This document shows positions 722 through 31,445 of a stretch of DNA of 35,438 bases, piece after piece. Positions within the stretch are counted from its first letter, which is position 1. Every line of letters begins with the position of its first letter. The stretch is taken from positions 1 to 35,438 of the forward strand of contig CALUYS010000001.1 of NCBI GenBank assembly GCA_944325065.1, written 5' to 3'. The position numbers and the translations under genes are program-made. The notes under the pieces were generated by a model. It was not told the origin of the DNA. It did no database searches and saw only the letters and a program-made list of their open reading frames with translations. This DNA is from Candidatus Gastranaerophilales bacterium. Lineage in GTDB: Bacteria > Cyanobacteriota > Vampirovibrionia > Gastranaerophilales > Gastranaerophilaceae.

Positions 722-1084
722 ATGGAAATTTTATTAAAAATAGTTGAACGAATGGATATAGGTACAATATTGGTAATGCTTGTATCTTTTTGGTTTTTCT
801 ATCAGAGATTGGAAACAAAAATTGACAAAGTGGAATTAAGATTGGGGCAAAGAATCGATAAAGTTGAAGAAAGAATCGATAAAGTTGAAGAAAGAATCGA
901 TAAAGTTGAGGAAAGCTTAAATCAAAAAATTGATAAAGTTGAAGAAAAACTAAGAAAAGAAATGGCAGAAAACACACGAGATATTAATTCTAGAATTGAT
1001 AGTTTATATAACTTTATGTTCACATTATGTGGATACAAAAGAGATGTGCTTGATAGACAAGATGATAGCAACAAAGCAGCATGA
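722..1084 (+). CDS. Small membrane-anchored coiled-coil protein, array copy 2, one heptad longer
   Basis: Unknown function, 120 aa. Identical to the unit 1 protein except for one extra seven-residue coiled-coil repeat (RIDKVEE), made by a 21-base insertion in a run of near-identical 21-base repeats. The insertion keeps frame and heptad register exactly, so it lengthens the predicted stalk by two helical turns and leaves the anchor (about 12-27) and C-terminal segment unchanged. Same ribosome site as copy 1. Replication slippage or unequal recombination explains the difference. Confidence 0.8.
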   Translation: MEILLKIVERMDIGTILVMLVSFWFFYQRLETKIDKVELRLGQRIDKVEERIDKVEERIDKVEESLNQKIDKVEEKLRKEMAENTRDINSRIDSLYNFMFTLCGYKRDVLDRQDDSNKAA

Positions 1085-15309: not shown

Positions 15310-15960
15310 ATGGAAAGTGAAATACTTGATAAGATTATTAAAATAAAAGAAAAGTCTAATAGTCTATATTTAATTAATCCTATTGAGCAAATTGATGTTT
15401 TTTTATATGATAAATTATATAAAACATCTTATTTTTATCTAGTTCAAAATTTCTGGGAAAAATGTCGTAAAGATTATAGTGAGGAATTTATTTTTAGCTT
15501 CCTTCTTGATTTCTTGACTATACAAAATAAAGGTAAGATTACAAACGGGGTTAATCTTGTTAAGACTTTTATTGCATATTTCGACAATTATAAAAATAAG
15601 AATATATTGTCTGAATTATTTATACAAATTACAAAATATTTAAAATATTATGATATAATTATTAATGAGAAAAGTAAAAATGAAAAAATTAATAATCTTT
15701 TACATAAAATAAATAAAACAAATAGTAAAGAGGCATATCCATATTTAATGGAAGTATTTGAAGATTATGAATATGCTAGAATTAACACAGATTTACTAAT
15801 TGAAATTCTTAATACCGTTATTTTATTTATTAATCATCAAAATGATGAAAAAATAAGTTCAATTGTTAAAAATTTTAATCAATTAAGTGATGAAATAAAT
15901 AAAATGTTGTTTTTAAAAATTATAACACCTAAAATAATAAAGGTTAATGTTGAAAATTAA
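15310..15960 (+). CDS. Hypothetical helical protein
   Basis: 216 aa, not recognised. Lys/Asn/Ile-rich and almost wholly helical by composition, with no membrane segment, signal peptide or catalytic motif. Weak repeating pattern of paired helices. No ribosome site precedes ATG 15310; a TATAAT (15300-15305) lies four bases before it, so either the message is leaderless or the box is chance in AT-rich DNA. Stop codon interlocks with that of hpt in a TTAA palindrome. Confidence 0.65.
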   Translation: MESEILDKIIKIKEKSNSLYLINPIEQIDVFLYDKLYKTSYFYLVQNFWEKCRKDYSEEFIFSFLLDFLTIQNKGKITNGVNLVKTFIAYFDNYKNKNILSELFIQITKYLKYYDIIINEKSKNEKINNLLHKINKTNSKEAYPYLMEVFEDYEYARINTDLLIEILNTVILFINHQNDEKISSIVKNFNQLSDEINKMLFLKIITPKIIKVNVEN

Positions 15961-16502
15961 ACTTCAAAGTAGCCAATATATGGTATATTTCTTAAATATT
16001 CTTTGTAATCAAGTCCATAACCAACAACAAATTTATCATCAATTTCAAAGCCTATAAAATCAGCTTCAATATCATTTTGGCGTGCACATTTTTTATTTAA
16101 TAAAGCTGCAAACTTAAGTGATTTTGGACAATATTTTAGTTTTAATAAATCTGTAACAAATTTAGCGGTATGACCAGTGTCAAGTATGTCTTCAACGATA
16201 AGAATATTTTTATCTTTTAAATCAGGTAAAGTTAAATCAATTGTATTTATTTTTCCGCTTGATTGAAAATCATTCCCATAGCTTGAAATGCGAATAAAAT
16301 GAAGAATAATTGGTAAATTAAGTTTTTTTATTAAATCACAACAAAATAAAGCTGAACCTTTTAAAACACAGATTACATGTAAATCTTCATCTTTATTATT
16401 ATGTTCTTTTTCTATTTCATATGCAAGCTCTTTAATTCTTTTTTGTAATGTATTTTCATCAAACAGAATTTTTAAATCTTTTAAATTTTTATCTAATTTC
16501 AT
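15957..16502 (-). CDS. hpt: Hypoxanthine phosphoribosyltransferase
   Basis: 181 aa. Joins hypoxanthine or guanine to PRPP for purine salvage. PRPP-binding VEDILDTGHTA, the SYGN loop after a RISS strand, VLKGSALF (early loop), and the C-terminal FVVGYGLDYKEYLRNIPYIG that contacts the base. Full length. Starts four bases after the tilS stop, with AAGG inside tilS, so it is translated from the ldpA-tilS-hpt message. The tilS-hpt pairing is a widespread bacterial arrangement. Confidence 0.95.
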   Translation of the reverse strand: MKLDKNLKDLKILFDENTLQKRIKELAYEIEKEHNNKDEDLHVICVLKGSALFCCDLIKKLNLPIILHFIRISSYGNDFQSSGKINTIDLTLPDLKDKNILIVEDILDTGHTAKFVTDLLKLKYCPKSLKFAALLNKKCARQNDIEADFIGFEIDDKFVVGYGLDYKEYLRNIPYIGYFEV

Positions 16503-16506
16503 AATA

Positions 16507-17904
16507 TTAAACCTTTTTAATAACTATTTTATATATTTTTTTACTAGAATCTAAAACTTTTAATTTATTGCTTAAGCCTATATTTTTAGCCCATAATATT
16601 TCATTTTTACTAGTTAATAAAATTATTTTATCACGATTATGTTTAAAAATACCTTTATTAATAAAATATTTTTTAAGCTTCATTTTACCGTTTTCAAAAC
16701 CAAATGGTTGGATAATATCGCCGTTTTGCCTATAGCGTATGGAAAACGGCAATGTTAGCATATCAAATGATACAACTTGATAGTCTTCATCCTCTTTTGG
16801 AAAATTATTTGGAACTTTATTTAGTTTTTCAAAAAATATTTTATGCCCGTCAAATTCATAAATTCTATTAAGATTATAAATGGTTAAACATTCTTCATTT
16901 TTTGGCTTTTTTTTATAAATATAAAAATATTGACTGTTTGAAAATAAAAATAATTCAGCTGAAATTGATATAATTTTTCCATTTTTTAAATTTGAGTTGT
17001 CAAAAATGAATGTACAAATTTCATTTATTTTTTTATAATTCCAATCAAGTTTATTTTCTTGCAAAATTTGAGAAATAAGTTTTGTTTTTAAGGCAAGATT
17101 TAAATTTATAAATTTTTTTGTATTATATTTTTTTTTGTTTAAAATTAGTTCATTATTATCGAAAGTCAAAATGTCTTTTAGCTTTTTATCAAGTATTTTA
17201 TCCAAAAAATCCTCTTGTAGATTTATAATATTAATCAGGTTAGAAATGACATCTTCGTAGTTTTTGTTTATATGTAAAAAATGAGTTTTCATTTTGTTTC
17301 TAATGTAGTTGCGAGAAAAATCTGATTGTAAATTTGTGCAATCTATGACAAAGTTTATTTTATTTAGTTTTAAATAATTTTCAATATCAATTCTTTTTAT
17401 ATAAAGCATTGGACGGTATATTTCAAGGTTTTCATTTTTACGATATGGTAAAATACACTTTAAACCTGTTGGAGAAGTTCCTTTTAATATGCGATAAAAA
17501 AAAGTTTCTACATTGTCATTTTGATTATGGGCAAGAAAAATACATTTAGTGTCAAATTTTTGGGAAGCTATTTTAAAAAAATTATATCTTTCATTACGGG
17601 CTTCTAGTTCAGACAATTTTTTATTTGAATTTAATTTGTATGAGTAAAAATCAATGTTCAAATTTTTACATAAATCAGAACAAAATTTTTCATCCTTGTC
17701 GCTTTCAACACCTCTTTGGTTGTGGTTTAAATGTATTGCAACAATTTGTAGATTTATTTTATTTTTTTTAATAACATTATTTAAAGCATAAAGTAAAGAA
17801 GTTGAATCTGCACCGCCAGAAAATCCTACAAGAATGCTTTTGTATTTTTTTTCAATTTGATATTGATTGATAAAATTAAATATAGTATTTTCTAATGTTT
17901 GCAT
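16507..17904 (-). CDS. tilS: tRNA(Ile)-lysidine synthetase
   Basis: 465 aa. Attaches lysine to C34 of the CAU-anticodon tRNA-Ile so that it reads AUA, an essential step in an AT-rich genome full of AUA codons. PP-loop GFSGGADS (27-34), HLNHNQRG, and AHNQNDNVET are present; the C-terminal region contains the TilS substrate-binding domain (RYRQNGDIIQPFG, KKYFINKGI). Its ATG overlaps the end of ldpA by 13 bases, so it is coupled. Confidence 0.93.
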   Translation of the reverse strand: MQTLENTIFNFINQYQIEKKYKSILVGFSGGADSTSLLYALNNVIKKNKINLQIVAIHLNHNQRGVESDKDEKFCSDLCKNLNIDFYSYKLNSNKKLSELEARNERYNFFKIASQKFDTKCIFLAHNQNDNVETFFYRILKGTSPTGLKCILPYRKNENLEIYRPMLYIKRIDIENYLKLNKINFVIDCTNLQSDFSRNYIRNKMKTHFLHINKNYEDVISNLINIINLQEDFLDKILDKKLKDILTFDNNELILNKKKYNTKKFINLNLALKTKLISQILQENKLDWNYKKINEICTFIFDNSNLKNGKIISISAELFLFSNSQYFYIYKKKPKNEECLTIYNLNRIYEFDGHKIFFEKLNKVPNNFPKEDEDYQVVSFDMLTLPFSIRYRQNGDIIQPFGFENGKMKLKKYFINKGIFKHNRDKIILLTSKNEILWAKNIGLSNKLKVLDSSKKIYKIVIKKV

Positions 17905-18824
17905 TTATTCACAAGCCTATTAGCGTTTTCTATTGCTATTTTGTATGGAACATTTTTAATAATTCTTCGAGCATAACTTCCTACTGTAATCCCTGCATAT
18001 TGAATGTTTGAAAGTTTGGCAAGTTGTGATGTCATTTCATTTGTGCCGCCTGAGATAAAAATATAAAAATTTTGAAATTTTAAATACTTTTGAAATAGCT
18101 GTGCACAGGAAACAGCATTAATGGTAGAAGAATAATCGTTTTCTCTCCCCGTCATTGAAAAACCATCAGCTTGGATAATAAGTGGTTTCCCTTCTCGTTT
18201 TTTTATAAAATAATCAGTAAGTTTTATTAATTTATGTTCAGACAAATATTCACGGGAAAAGCAAACAGATATTATCCCATCAAAATTGTTATTTAAATTG
18301 TCAAAAGCTTGTTTTATCATTTTTGTTTTGGAAATAGAAGCATGAAGTTCAATAATTTTTACATTATTTTTATTTGCAAGATTAATAGCATCAAAATCCG
18401 AAACAGAATACTTATTTTTATAAGAGATTGCTTTACATTTACATTTTTGGCATCCAATACATTTTGTTTTATCAATAACAACATTTTTATCTTTTATAAA
18501 AATAGCTTTATGGTGGCATTGTTTTATACATTTAAAACATTTTTTACATTTTTCATTATTTATAAACGCAAAAGAATTGTGTTTATCGTTTTCAATTGCA
18601 AAGCTTAAACTAAATAAAAAATCATTAATATTTTTATTATTGTTTTTAAGTTCTTTAAATACAATATCAATAGCTTTTTGATTGGGTGGGATGTCAATAA
18701 TATCAGTTTTTGTATTTGAATATATATTTATAATGTATTCAATTTCTTTAAAATCTAAATTCCCAAGACCTAAAACAAGTTTAAATAAATTTTTTTCTTT
18801 AAGTTTATAAATAATATTTTCCAT
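17892..18824 (-). CDS. ldpA: LdpA-like iron-sulfur protein (cyanobacterial clock-input family)
   Basis: 310 aa. In Synechococcus, LdpA carries Fe-S clusters and tunes circadian period to redox state. Here the N-terminal part (1-90) has no motif, then a ferredoxin-like region has C93, C96, C99, C103 and C122, C125, C128, C130. The second group spacing is CxxCxxCxC. The C-terminal domain has the family signatures QADGFSMTG (218-226), FISGGTNE (256-263) and AGITVGSYARR (277-287). The family is recognised from memory, without a search. No ribosome site precedes the ATG; an extended -10 lies seven bases upstream. First gene of ldpA-tilS-hpt. A clock role is unlikely to be the ancestral one if the organism lacks Kai proteins; redox sensing is more plausible. 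Confidence 0.8.
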   Translation of the reverse strand: MENIIYKLKEKNLFKLVLGLGNLDFKEIEYIINIYSNTKTDIIDIPPNQKAIDIVFKELKNNNKNINDFLFSLSFAIENDKHNSFAFINNEKCKKCFKCIKQCHHKAIFIKDKNVVIDKTKCIGCQKCKCKAISYKNKYSVSDFDAINLANKNNVKIIELHASISKTKMIKQAFDNLNNNFDGIISVCFSREYLSEHKLIKLTDYFIKKREGKPLIIQADGFSMTGRENDYSSTINAVSCAQLFQKYLKFQNFYIFISGGTNEMTSQLAKLSNIQYAGITVGSYARRIIKNVPYKIAIENANRLVNKCKH

Positions 18825-18924: not shown

Positions 18925-20712
18925 ATGGATAATAATAAATTAAGAAATATAGCAATAATCGCACACGTAGACCATGGAAAAACAACTCTTGTTGATTGTA
19001 TGTTAAGACAATGTGGCGTTTTTCGTGAAAACGAGGTAGTTGAAGAAAGAGTTTTAGATAACAATGATATTGAACGTGAAAGAGGAATAACAATCTTAGC
19101 AAAAAATGTATCTGTAAATTATAATGGGTATAAAATAAATATAGTAGACACACCAGGGCACGCAGATTTTGGTGGAGAAGTTGAACGGGTTTTAGGTATG
19201 GTTGATGGTGCATTACTTATTGTTGATGCAGCTGAAGGTCCAATGCCACAAACAAGATTTGTTTTGAAGAAAGCTTTAGAATTGGGTATTAGGGTTATTG
19301 TTGTTGTTAATAAAATAGATAAACCACAAGCTGAACCTGATAAGACAATAGACAAGGTTTTTGATTTATTTACTGAATTAACGGATAATGAATATCTAAT
19401 TGATTTTCCTATAATATATTCATCGAGTTTAAATGGCTATGCAAAAAAAGAACTTGAAGATGAAAATACTGATATAATCCCATTACTTAATTCTATAATT
19501 GAAAATATTAAACCGCCAAAAGGCGATAAAACTAAAAATCTTCAATTTCATGTTACAACACTTGATTATAATGAATATGTAGGTCGTATAGCAATAGGTA
19601 GAATTGTAAATGGTGAAATTAATGCAAATGAAATGGTTTCATTAATAAAAGCTGATAGTTCAGTTCAACGTGGTAAAATTGTTAAATTATTTGGTTTTAA
19701 GGATTTAGGTCGAGTTGAAATACAAAATGCTCAAGCTGGTGATATTGTTGCAATAGCAGGATTTGCAGATATACAAATTGGTGAAACTATTTCATCAATT
19801 GATAATCCTCAAGCTTTACCGTTAATAAAAATTGATGAACCTACATTACAAATGAATTTTCAAGTAAATAATTCACCATTTGCTGGTCAGGAGGGGAAAT
19901 TTGTAACAAGCCGTCAAATACGAAAAAGGTTATATCAGGAGCTTGAAAAAAATGTAAGTTTACGTGTTGAAGATACAGATAACACTGATGTTTTTCGTGT
20001 TAGCGGACGGGGTGAACTACACCTAGGAATACTGATAGAAACAATGCGTCGTGAAGGTTATGAATTTCAAGTTTCAAAACCACAGGTTATTTTAAAAACA
20101 GTGGATAACAAAACTTATGAGCCGTTTGAAAATTTGTTTATTGATGTTCCTGAAGAATATGCAGGTGCTACAATAGAAAAACTTTCAAATAGAAAAGGCG
20201 AATTACAACAAATGCAAGTAGTTGGTACTCGAACTAATATGAGATTTATTATACCCTCTCGTGGGTTGATTGGATTCAGATCAGACTTTATTCGCTTAAC
20301 TCGTGGTGAAGGTATAATGAATCATACGTTTTATGAATATCGAGAATATTCAGGTGATATTGAAAAACAACGCAATGGTTCAATTATTGCACATGAAAAT
20401 GGTGAGACTATACCTTATGCTTTGAAACAATTTGAAGATAGGGGTGTATTTTTTGTTGTTCCAAAAACAAAAGTGTATCGTGGTATGATTATAGGTGAAG
20501 CAAATAGACCTCAAGATGTTGTTGTTAATATTTGTAAAACAAAAAAATTAACAAATATGCGAAGTGCAACTGCAGATGTAATGGTTACACTTCAAGCTCC
20601 CAGGTTGATGTCATTAGAAGATTGTCTTGAGTATATATCAGATGATGAACTTGTTGAAGTTACACCTCAAAATGTTCGTATAAGAAAATTTGACTTGAAT
20701 AAAATAAGATAG
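18925..20712 (+). CDS. typA: Ribosome-associated GTPase TypA/BipA
   Basis: 595 aa, full length. A translational GTPase that binds the ribosome and helps assembly and stress adaptation. G1 AHVDHGKTT (13-21), the RGIT switch (ERERGITI), DTPGHADF (G3), and NKID (G4) are intact; EF-G-like domains II and III and the BipA-specific C-terminal domain (GLIGFRSDF, TRGEGIMNH) follow. The ribosome site is weak. Divergent from ldpA and upstream of valS, with 21 bases between, so typA-valS-ruvC is probably one operon. Confidence 0.96.
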   Translation: MDNNKLRNIAIIAHVDHGKTTLVDCMLRQCGVFRENEVVEERVLDNNDIERERGITILAKNVSVNYNGYKINIVDTPGHADFGGEVERVLGMVDGALLIVDAAEGPMPQTRFVLKKALELGIRVIVVVNKIDKPQAEPDKTIDKVFDLFTELTDNEYLIDFPIIYSSSLNGYAKKELEDENTDIIPLLNSIIENIKPPKGDKTKNLQFHVTTLDYNEYVGRIAIGRIVNGEINANEMVSLIKADSSVQRGKIVKLFGFKDLGRVEIQNAQAGDIVAIAGFADIQIGETISSIDNPQALPLIKIDEPTLQMNFQVNNSPFAGQEGKFVTSRQIRKRLYQELEKNVSLRVEDTDNTDVFRVSGRGELHLGILIETMRREGYEFQVSKPQVILKTVDNKTYEPFENLFIDVPEEYAGATIEKLSNRKGELQQMQVVGTRTNMRFIIPSRGLIGFRSDFIRLTRGEGIMNHTFYEYREYSGDIEKQRNGSIIAHENGETIPYALKQFEDRGVFFVVPKTKVYRGMIIGEANRPQDVVVNICKTKKLTNMRSATADVMVTLQAPRLMSLEDCLEYISDDELVEVTPQNVRIRKFDLNKIR

Positions 20713-28670: not shown

Positions 28671-28943
28671 TTATTTTTTTTCAACACGTATAGCACAATC
28701 AGGACATGTCAAAGCACATGCACCACAGCCAATACAAATGTTAGGATCTGGTTGAACAGCAGGGGTAGCATAAATACCAACTTCATTTGACCAAGAAAGG
28801 CATTTTTCACCTTTTGCATTCATAGGGCATTTTTCTAAACACAATCCACAACCTTTGCACAAATCTGTGTACAAATACCAATCAGCTTTTCCTTTTTGAA
28901 CACCTTCAACTTTTATACCTTTATATTGTTGTTTTTCACTCAT
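28671..28943 (-). CDS. korD: 2-oxoacid:ferredoxin oxidoreductase, ferredoxin-like delta subunit
   Basis: 90 aa. Two 4Fe-4S motifs, CKGCGLCLEKCP and CIGCGACALTCP, take electrons from the thiamine-bound intermediate and pass them to ferredoxin. A separate delta subunit is typical of four-subunit Kor, Vor and Por enzymes. Last gene of the minus-strand operon, after the gamma subunit. Confidence 0.88.
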   Translation of the reverse strand: MSEKQQYKGIKVEGVQKGKADWYLYTDLCKGCGLCLEKCPMNAKGEKCLSWSNEVGIYATPAVQPDPNICIGCGACALTCPDCAIRVEKK

Positions 28944-28961
28944 TTTATTACATCCTCTTTT

Positions 28962-29522
28962 CTATACACTTGCCTTTTCAACAAGTTTCATACCACAATC
29001 AAGTGCTTTATAGTTTAATTCACGCAATTCAGGTTTTTTATCAAACTTTTTGCCCAAAGCATGTTCCATAGCTGATTTAACAAAATCTATAGGCATAACT
29101 TTTGTTGCTTGAATAATTACACCTAAAATAATTATGTTGAATACGCGAACACTTAACTCATCATGTGCTATTTGATTTGCAGGAATACCAATAACTTCTT
29201 TACATTCAACAGTCGGTTTTGTATGACAAACTGATGTATCATAAATTACAACGGTATCTTTATCAATATATGTTTGGCATCTTTCAATTGCACGGTCTGA
29301 TAACATAATAACTATATCACCTTTTGAAAAACGAGGTTCGCCAATTTTTTCATCACCAATTTGACAAAAAGCAATTGAAACACCACCACGTTGTTCAACA
29401 CCAAAGTTTGGTATATAAAGTATTTCTTTATTTGCTTCATAACCTGCTTCAACTAATATCTTAGCAACAGATTGCACACCTTGCCCGCCTTCACCGGCTA
29501 GGACTATTTTTGTTCTTGTCAT
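28962..29522 (-). CDS. korC: 2-oxoacid:ferredoxin oxidoreductase, gamma subunit
   Basis: 186 aa. The open frame extends to 29567, but ATG 29522 (MTRTKIVLAGEGGQG) follows a strong AGGAG (29529-29533) and starts the family at its usual GEGGQG nucleotide-binding loop, so it is preferred; the longer form would also run into the beta subunit gene. This subunit builds the CoA-binding part of the enzyme. The FGVEQRGG motif is conserved. Confidence 0.9.
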   Translation of the reverse strand: MTRTKIVLAGEGGQGVQSVAKILVEAGYEANKEILYIPNFGVEQRGGVSIAFCQIGDEKIGEPRFSKGDIVIMLSDRAIERCQTYIDKDTVVIYDTSVCHTKPTVECKEVIGIPANQIAHDELSVRVFNIIILGVIIQATKVMPIDFVKSAMEHALGKKFDKKPELRELNYKALDCGMKLVEKASV

Positions 29523-29541
29523 TTTTTTCTCCTTTAAAAAA

Positions 29542-30297
29542 TTAATTAAGTCCTTCAGGAACAACAAAGTCTTTTACTTCAAAAAATTCTTCCATTTTTG
29601 CAAGTCTTGCAAATGTATCTTTGTTGTTAGTTCTCCAGTTAAGAGGACATATTGATAATACTTCAACAAAAGAAAAGCCTCCATTTGCAACATTTGTTAT
29701 AGCTTTCTTTAATGTTGCACGAAGTTTTCTTACATTGCTAACTGATGAACGAGCTACAAATGATTTAGTAGGGTCAACTATTGAAGCTACCATTTCTGCA
29801 CCTTTTGCCGGTTTCCCTGTAGTTTCGCAATCACGACCATAAGGTGTTGTTTCAGTAATTTGTCCTGGCATTGTTGTTGGTGACATCTGACCACCTGTCA
29901 TACCATAGTTTGTATTATTACATAACAATATTAACATGTTTTCACTACGAACTGATGCATTAACCAAATGTTGCGAACCAATAGCTAAACCGCCACCGTC
30001 ACCCATATATGCAATACCAACTGTTCCAGGGTTAGCACGTGTAACACCATAAATAACTGGCGTTGTTCGACCATGGTGTGTCTGAACAGTATCTATATTC
30101 ATAAAATTCCAAGATAACAAACTGCAACCAATATCACATCCAAACACTGAACGCTCTTGTAAACCTAACTCATCAATTACATAAGCAAGACTTTTTAATA
30201 TAATACCATGTCCACATCCAGGACAAAATTTGCTTGCTCCAACTTTTGTGTTTTGTGTGCTTGGTATTTCTGGTGGTAAATTTAATAATTCTACCAT
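29542..30297 (-). CDS. korB: 2-oxoacid:ferredoxin oxidoreductase, thiamine-diphosphate beta subunit
   Basis: 251 aa from ATG 30297, preferred to 30312 because AAGGAG lies just before it. Binds thiamine diphosphate and magnesium: the GDGG...N motif (GDGGGLAIGSQH, ending in the NNTNYGMTGGQ stretch), and CPGCGHG near the N-terminus. Decarboxylates the 2-oxoacid. Whether the substrate is 2-oxoglutarate or a branched-chain 2-oxoacid (Vor) cannot be fixed from sequence. Confidence 0.9.
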   Translation of the reverse strand: MVELLNLPPEIPSTQNTKVGASKFCPGCGHGIILKSLAYVIDELGLQERSVFGCDIGCSLLSWNFMNIDTVQTHHGRTTPVIYGVTRANPGTVGIAYMGDGGGLAIGSQHLVNASVRSENMLILLCNNTNYGMTGGQMSPTTMPGQITETTPYGRDCETTGKPAKGAEMVASIVDPTKSFVARSSVSNVRKLRATLKKAITNVANGGFSFVEVLSICPLNWRTNNKDTFARLAKMEEFFEVKDFVVPEGLN

Positions 30298-30338
30298 TTT
30301 ATTCTCCTTCATTTATATTTTATTTATTTTATTTTATT

Positions 30339-31445
30339 TTATGCAACTACTTGTGATGAATTTATCATTTCTTCAACTTTATAAATTAAATCATCACCTG
30401 TAACACCGACACCCATTTTATATAATGTAGAATATGGCGTGGTTAATCCATACAATTTCTCTAATACCATACGAGCCAATTGACCATTTGCTGATTCTGT
30501 AAATAATATTTGTTTTGAACGTTTTACTGCATTACGTAATGGTTCAACAGCTAATGGACGAATAGTAATAGGTCTGAATAAACCAACTTTAATTCCTTTT
30601 TCACGTAAAGCATCAATAGCTGTTTTTGCTGAACGTGCAACGATACCATGAGCTATAATTAAAATTTCGGCATCTTCTGCTTTATATTCTTCATATTCAG
30701 CAACTTCTTTAGACATTGCATCAAAATCTTTTTGATACCCTTCCAGATGTTCCATTAATTCTTCTTCAAGGTTAAACGTATTTCTTAAATGATTAGCATC
30801 ACGATCAACTCCTATTTTACCAACAGCTCTTAATTCAGCAGGTGTTGGTTCCATAACTATACCACGAGTCGCCGGATCATACATCATAACAGGCTCTCTC
30901 ATTTTACCTTGATAACCATCAGCTAAAATAAATGTTGGGAATCTATATTTCCAAGCTGTATTAAATGCTTTGATAACATAATCATATAAATCTTGATGAC
31001 CTGCTGTTGAATATACAATACGGAAACCTTCACCATTACCACCAAAACAAGTTAAGTTCGTTTCTTGTTGTGCATAAATAACAGTAGCTGTAGATGGTCC
31101 ACCACGTTGCATAACAGCACATACAAAAGGGATTCTCATCATTTCAGCCATGCTCATTGCATCTTGCATGATAACATTCCCTGGACCTGCCGTCGCTGTA
31201 AATGCACGTTTCCCTGCCAATATACCACCAATTGTTGAAAAACCAGCTGATATTTCATCTTCTGTTTGTAAAAAACCAGCTTCTGTTTTCGGTAACAATT
31301 TACACCAAGTGTGCATAATTTCATTCTGGGGAGTGATAGGGTAACCATACATAAACTCTGCTTGTGCTGCATTTGCTGCATATGCAATTACTTCATTCCC
31401 GGTTAGAAACATTTTAGTGTCTTTTTCAATTAGTTTTTTAACCAT
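30339..31445 (-). CDS. korA: 2-oxoacid:ferredoxin oxidoreductase, alpha subunit
   Basis: 368 aa. The pyrimidine-binding subunit, with YGYPITPQNE, TEDEISAGFSTIGG, and TATAGPG...MQDAMSMAEM as in Kor/Vor alpha. Ribosome site AAGG before ATG 31445. First gene of korABCD: together the enzyme turns a 2-oxoacid plus CoA into acyl-CoA and CO2 with reduced ferredoxin, or the reverse. This is an oxygen-sensitive route in anaerobes. The promoter should lie in 31446-31600, but no confident boxes are seen in this T-rich DNA. Confidence 0.9.
   Translation of the reverse strand: MVKKLIEKDTKMFLTGNEVIAYAANAAQAEFMYGYPITPQNEIMHTWCKLLPKTEAGFLQTEDEISAGFSTIGGILAGKRAFTATAGPGNVIMQDAMSMAEMMRIPFVCAVMQRGGPSTATVIYAQQETNLTCFGGNGEGFRIVYSTAGHQDLYDYVIKAFNTAWKYRFPTFILADGYQGKMREPVMMYDPATRGIVMEPTPAELRAVGKIGVDRDANHLRNTFNLEEELMEHLEGYQKDFDAMSKEVAEYEEYKAEDAEILIIAHGIVARSAKTAIDALREKGIKVGLFRPITIRPLAVEPLRNAVKRSKQILFTESANGQLARMVLEKLYGLTTPYSTLYKMGVGVTGDDLIYKVEEMINSSQVVA

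Follow-up and report, generated by a model that had tools for sequence, protein, structure and literature searches.

An LdpA-like protein from a non-photosynthetic bacterium without clock genes belongs to a second LdpA subfamily and looks like an iron-sulphur barrel enzyme

The analyzed stretch of DNA (hereafter, the window; 35,438 nucleotides of a Candidatus Gastranaerophilales contig, CALUYS010000001.1) carries at positions 17892–18824 on the minus strand an open reading frame encoding a full-length relative of LdpA, known as an input protein of the cyanobacterial circadian clock. The family of this protein, its predicted fold, its conserved residue pattern, its gene contexts, and the absence of KaiB and KaiC from its genome were established by computation. 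We consider it probable that the gene encodes a member of a distinct LdpA subfamily (subfamily B), namely a Ycf23-like (beta/alpha)8 barrel carrying a ferredoxin, that the protein works as an iron-sulphur enzyme outside any clock, and that the gene became joined to tilS and hpt for the sake of shared expression. The LdpA family as a whole appears to be more widespread than the clock and looks like an iron-sulphur barrel enzyme.

The open reading frame starts with ATG, ends with TAG, and encodes 310 amino acids. Pfam LdpA_C matched residues 150–300 (17925–18377, minus strand) with 46 bits against a curated cut-off of 22.2 (E=5.7e-12), which places the protein in the LdpA family; the three motifs by which the original prediction had recognized a clear LdpA relative (QADGFSMTG, SGGTNE, and VGSYARR) were all found, and the profile match bears out that recognition. 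The NCBIfam model CircClkLdpA (NF045992) covered residues 5–299 (E=8.4e-18); however, its score of 64.6 bits lies below the equivalog cut-off of 450 bits that defines clock LdpA. No match to Pfam LdpA_Fe-S-bd (PF25160) appeared at E up to 1, and the generic Fer4_6 profile exceeded its own cut-off over the cysteine region. This region, residues 84–137 (18414–18575, minus strand), is a ferredoxin-like segment inserted behind strand 3 of the barrel, as delimited by the AlphaFold2 secondary structure and by the gap in the Ycf23 profile alignment. Alignments locate in it a first cysteine motif, C93-x2-C96-x2-C99-x3-C103 (18516–18548, minus strand), and a second, C122-x2-C125-x2-C128-x-C130 (18435–18461, minus strand), which is shorter by two residues than in other family members. 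The eight cysteines at positions 93, 96, 99, 103, 122, 125, 128, and 130 are all present and would suffice for two [4Fe-4S] clusters. The protein has lost the CP of the second motif and the proline that follows C103, and threonine replaces S225; nearly all invariant residues are otherwise retained. QADGFSMTG (18147–18173, minus strand) lies at the end of barrel strand 6, where Q218 is nearly invariant and D220 invariant, and GGTN (18039–18050, minus strand) lies at the end of strand 7, where, along with the G282 and R286 that follow strand 8, it resembles a phosphate-binding loop.

The AlphaFold2 model of the window protein (pLDDT 94.4, pTM 0.91) had strands at residues 13–17, 42–45, 70–76, 157–161, 184–190, 215–220, 253–258, and 278–281, with the ferredoxin-like part between the third and the fourth, and the model of a clock-type LdpA (pLDDT 93.5, pTM 0.92) exhibited an identical layout, again with the ferredoxin after strand 3. 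Profile–profile alignment to Ycf23/DUF561 spanned 227 columns (probability 98.6, E=6e-16) with a gap at the ferredoxin; since the whole barrel aligns to Ycf23 and the ferredoxin is skipped, we regard the family as barrels of the Ycf23 type into which a two-cluster ferredoxin is inserted. Measured against the curated DUF561 cut-off of 21.6 bits, the window protein scored below it (18.1 bits) and its congener above it (22.4 bits). A separate ycf23 gene is located elsewhere in the same genome (L315; G000:C2:46806-47519), and ycf23 was found in 26 of 26 phylum genomes searched. Comparison of 147 sequences, covering both subfamilies and both bacteria and archaea, revealed no variation at K15, D44, S74, E159, H161, D220, and R286 and near invariance at Q218, G259, G260, T261, N262, and G282, as also seen in a 61-sequence alignment. 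Read from the predicted secondary structure, each invariant residue would lie in the C-terminal half of a strand or just past it, on the side where enzymes of the barrel fold have their active site. The Ycf23 profile weakly matched FMN- and sugar-phosphate-binding barrels, which agrees with a putative site for phosphate close to the loops GGTN and G-x3-R. A Foldseek search of the PDB returned generic TIM barrels (TM-score up to about 0.5 by query length) and no specific enzyme; a search of solved structures by sequence returned mostly ferredoxin matches, with no LdpA structure among them, and a literature search on LdpA and TIM barrels found nothing relevant.

In the analysis of clock and photosynthesis genes, the genome of the window (G000; 1.86 Mb, 98.4% complete) contained a single LdpA_C match, and profile searches detected neither KaiB nor Photo_RC, the photosystem II reaction-centre protein. 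Matches to KaiC-like ATPases were rejected as KaiC, their sequences reading as RadA, DnaB, and RecA. The original prediction had seen no clock or photosynthesis genes in the window, and the same now holds for KaiB, KaiC, and Photo_RC in the whole genome. Among 386 genomes sampled from the phylum Cyanobacteriota, LdpA_C was present in 377, KaiB in 189 (186 above cut-off), and Photo_RC in 182. Genomes without Photo_RC were counted as non-photosynthetic, except for three (G116, G159, and G183) that contain KaiB and belong to photosynthetic families; LdpA was found in 195 of the resulting 201 genomes, and KaiB exceeded the Pfam cut-off in only two of them (G096 and G013). LdpA thus extends across the phylum independently of the clock. 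Within the taxonomic family of the window, 166 of 170 genomes carried an ldpA-like gene and four did not.

A previous survey of 11,264 genomes reported LdpA from Cyanobacteria only (Schmelling et al. 2017, PMC5520375). Our scan outside the phylum, which took one genome per species and used an alignment of non-photosynthetic members as query, yielded 347 encoding stretches that matched one conserved peptide pattern. The best 80 of these 347, which come mostly from metagenome-assembled genomes and may include a few labels that reflect binning errors, contained full-length relatives from Omnitrophota, from deltaproteobacteria such as Syntrophorhabdus and Desulfobacterales, and from Saganbacteria/WOR-1, Elusimicrobia, Aquicultor, methanogens (with Methanocalculus taiwanensis P2F9704a as a named strain), and single-cell genomes of Prochlorococcus. 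Outside the cyanobacteria, the ldpA-like genes sit almost without exception in versions of one cassette, which encodes an HMGL-like aldolase, the LdpA-like protein, a HAD phosphatase, an HpcH/HpaI aldolase, and a KdsB-like cytidylyltransferase (CMP-sugar transferase). A large surface-carbohydrate protein often joins them; the single one tested was TIGR04326-like. A literature search on this gene combination found nothing relevant.

Trees built with FastTree and, under a mixture model, in two IQ-TREE runs (class names of the genomes follow titled records of the same clades) divided the family into two subfamilies, A and B, and this split was supported at 100/99 in both IQ-TREE runs, one of them with fast rows removed. 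Subfamily A comprised the LdpA of photosynthetic genomes, of most genomes of the Sericytochromatia type, and of Vampirovibrionia families f4–f6; subfamily B comprised the proteins of the window and of every other sampled member of the Gastranaerophilales, those of two genomes of family f20 and of Prochlorococcus single-cell genomes, and the cassette proteins. The Gastranaerophilales formed a 98/98 group inside B, so that the window protein was placed with the cassette proteins. Judged from these sequences, the window protein is not a direct ortholog of clock LdpA. The view that it is simply the clock LdpA of another genome is not supported, as the protein groups neither with photosynthetic LdpA nor with that of other Vampirovibrionia, its relatives by species. 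A grouping of Gastranaerophilales with A-type Vampirovibrionia was rejected in the AU test (p=0.0096, or p=0.023 without fast rows), the groups for these tests having been defined with the tree already in view. Rooting on the distant Ycf23 left B intact (89/99), and the test of A as a clade gave p=0.42.

The gene contexts of the two subfamilies also differed. In a set of 44 A and 97 B loci, some of them redundant or related to one another, the neighbours typical of A, namely ycf45 or an Orn/Lys/Arg decarboxylase, stood within three genes at 32 A loci and at none of the B loci, whereas a cassette partner stood within three genes at 42 B loci and at none of the A loci. ycf45 encodes an R3H/SpoIIIAA-like ATPase, and in A the decarboxylase often precedes and tmk sometimes follows (L198–L205, L216–L233, and others). 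The ldpA–ycf45 order in A looks like an old arrangement of the whole phylum. As to a displacement in which the A-type operon would have stayed behind after losing ldpA, the two f20 genomes keep ycf45–tmk without ldpA, and in Gastranaerophilales ycf45 is located elsewhere and without tmk. The Gastranaerophilales may have taken their gene from the cassette, or the cassette may have taken it from a relative of theirs. As for Prochlorococcus, B-type LdpA occurs in some members of the genus (L094, L112, L117, L127, L129, L145, L154, L162, L163, and L228, the last in G223), and several single-cell genomes contain a second, degenerate LdpA-like gene directly after the first. G223 contains no A-type LdpA match and another genome of the genus, G165, none of either type; KaiB is present in both.

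At the window locus, the end of the ldpA-like frame is overlapped by 13 nt by the start (ATG, 17902–17904) of tilS, encoding tRNA-Ile lysidine synthetase (16507–17904, minus strand; ATP_bind_3 and TilS_C in Pfam, TIGR02432 in NCBIfam), and 4 nt separate the tilS stop from the start of hpt, encoding hypoxanthine phosphoribosyltransferase (15957–16502, minus strand; TIGR01203, 191 bits against a cut-off of 150). The ldpA-like gene therefore heads tilS–hpt, as the original prediction had it. The divergently transcribed frame at 18925–20712 (plus strand) is presumably a typA-like GTPase, named from its sequence by features of that family. A promoter scan gave about as many sites as shuffled sequences (34 versus 31). 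Elsewhere in the window, two nearly identical adjacent frames (164–505 and 722–1084, plus strand) differ in the copy number of a seven-residue coiled-coil repeat (ERIDKVE), and genes at 28671–31445 (minus strand) resemble those for a 2-oxoacid:ferredoxin oxidoreductase that has a small ferredoxin subunit of its own.

The ldpA–tilS order was present in 7 of 20 sampled genomes of the taxonomic family, in the window, and at locus L170, all inside one ten-row clade (support 100/97). ldpA overlaps or almost overlaps tilS at most loci of this sublineage, and hpt follows tilS at all of them except L170, where the contig is not resolved. In other Gastranaerophilales, the ldpA-like gene adjoins partners of the cassette type, either the aldolase (for example, at L146, L150, L153, and L183) or the HAD phosphatase (L177 and L179). 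The record holding L146 is titled uncultured Brachyspira RUG745; its ldpA–aldolase pair is of the Gastranaerophilales type, and the record is probably mislabelled. The close aldolase is mostly missing from genomes of the tilS-linked sublineage: no HMGL-like aldolase was matched anywhere in the genome of the window, and neither an HMGL-like nor a HAD partner stands beside the ldpA-like gene there. Since the tilS link is confined to one sublineage and aldolase or HAD neighbours occur elsewhere in the order, the link to translation or purine salvage, which the original prediction had offered as a possibility, is a late local arrangement, and the case for it is weak.

The reading as an iron-sulphur enzyme is drawn from the full-length Pfam and NCBIfam matches, the two AlphaFold2 barrels, the Ycf23 alignment, the invariant residues at the strand ends, and the company that B genes keep outside the phylum, that is, an HMGL-like aldolase, a HAD phosphatase, an HpaI aldolase, and a KdsB-like CMP transferase. 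In this mechanism, a Ycf23-like barrel with a ferredoxin, probably of two [4Fe-4S] clusters, inserted after strand 3 would bind a small keto- or sugar-acid metabolite, probably in phosphorylated form, at its mouth and would most likely catalyze an iron-sulphur-dependent reaction on it, and the ferredoxin would either supply electrons or gate the activity according to redox state. The protein would provide no clock input in this organism; in the sublineage of the window its gene would have become the first of the tilS–hpt operon, most likely for shared expression, and the clock effect in photosynthetic cyanobacteria would be a derived use of a redox-responsive enzyme. Several points count against this reading. 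We know of no activity for any LdpA, no cassette gene stands at the window locus and no HMGL-like partner in its genome, and Foldseek gives generic barrels only. Fast evolution of the window protein and of those of its relatives that are linked to tilS, with conserved residues altered in some (L065), and the absence of the gene from 4 of 170 family genomes indicate that the protein may be drifting here and its role weakening. Finally, equal conservation would be expected of a ligand-binding redox sensor.

Such a sensor, in which the iron-sulphur domain reads redox state while the barrel binds a metabolite without catalysis and regulates partners such as the TilS/HPT pair, is in our judgement rather unlikely. 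A 2026 review (PMC13421787) describes the LdpA of photosynthetic cyanobacteria as a sensor of plastoquinone redox state, in S. elongatus through its [4Fe-4S] cluster, that changes the abundance of CikA in a way not yet explained, and it lists the action of LdpA on the clock as unresolved. The recurrence of the tilS overlap in the sublineage is also in its favour, and ligand-binding sensors conserve pockets too; however, B genes outside the phylum sit in enzyme cassettes, the tilS link is restricted to one sublineage, and the charged set of K, D, E-x-H, D, and R at the strand ends is typical of catalytic barrels. The older redox role proposed in the original prediction corresponds to this sensor; the recurrent overlap speaks for it, and the cassettes and the local nature of the tilS link speak against it.

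An enzyme that left the cassette, is now decaying in this sublineage, and persists only by heading the tilS–hpt operon is improbable. In favour of decay, the window protein has an identity to its congener of 72%, compared with 91–93% for HPT and TypA, and the gene's absence from four family genomes, the missing partner aldolase, and the lost proline and CP residues point the same way. However, TilS is less conserved still between the two genomes (64.5%), and the frame is open, with 8/8 cysteines and all but a few invariant residues in place, in a gene that 166 of 170 family genomes retain. Slightly less probable still is vertical descent from the ancestor of clock LdpA with a tree position distorted by fast evolution and AT-rich composition. 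Several tree rows are indeed long or compositionally odd, and the AU rejection is moderate and concerns a group named post hoc, but the split persists without fast rows, B persists with the Ycf23 outgroup, the A and B neighbourhoods do not mix, and members from Elusimicrobia and Omnitrophota group with the AT-rich gut sequences in B. Returning to the enzyme, we suggest tentatively, as a possibility somewhat short of even, that LdpA performs one reaction common to cyanobacteria, their non-photosynthetic relatives, and surface-sugar cassettes found in bacteria and methanogens, that it affects the clock through its product or its redox-dependent activity, and that the Gastranaerophilales exchanged a vertical copy for a cassette-type one.

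The papers on Melainabacteria that were consulted mention RpaA, RpaB, and NblS but not LdpA, and a search combining LdpA and Melainabacteria found nothing relevant. A testable idea of LdpA chemistry comes from a non-photosynthetic, gut-type bacterium without clock genes, and the spread of LdpA across non-photosynthetic classes and methanogens, together with the enzyme cassette and the invariant barrel mouth, makes the question of its action on the clock testable. We infer for the family an iron-sulphur enzyme, or a ligand-gated redox sensor, for a small metabolite, with the clock role derived later.

Compared with LdpA of S. elongatus and other photosynthetic cyanobacteria, the window protein shares the domain order, the predicted fold, LdpA_C, the eight cluster cysteines, and the invariant barrel residues, but it scores below the equivalog cut-off, belongs to the other subfamily, is shorter (310 versus 331–417 amino acids), and occurs without a ycf45 or decarboxylase neighbour in a genome without KaiB or KaiC. 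With the cassette proteins of Omnitrophota, deltaproteobacteria, WOR-1, Elusimicrobia, methanogens, and Prochlorococcus single-cell genomes it shares membership in B, and the aldolase and HAD partner types also adjoin the gene in other Gastranaerophilales; unlike those genes, however, the window gene heads tilS–hpt in a genome that lacks the HMGL partner. Ycf23/DUF561 has a homologous barrel along its entire length, in which K, D, Q-x-[DE]-G, and the loops align, but, unlike the LdpA family, it has no ferredoxin.
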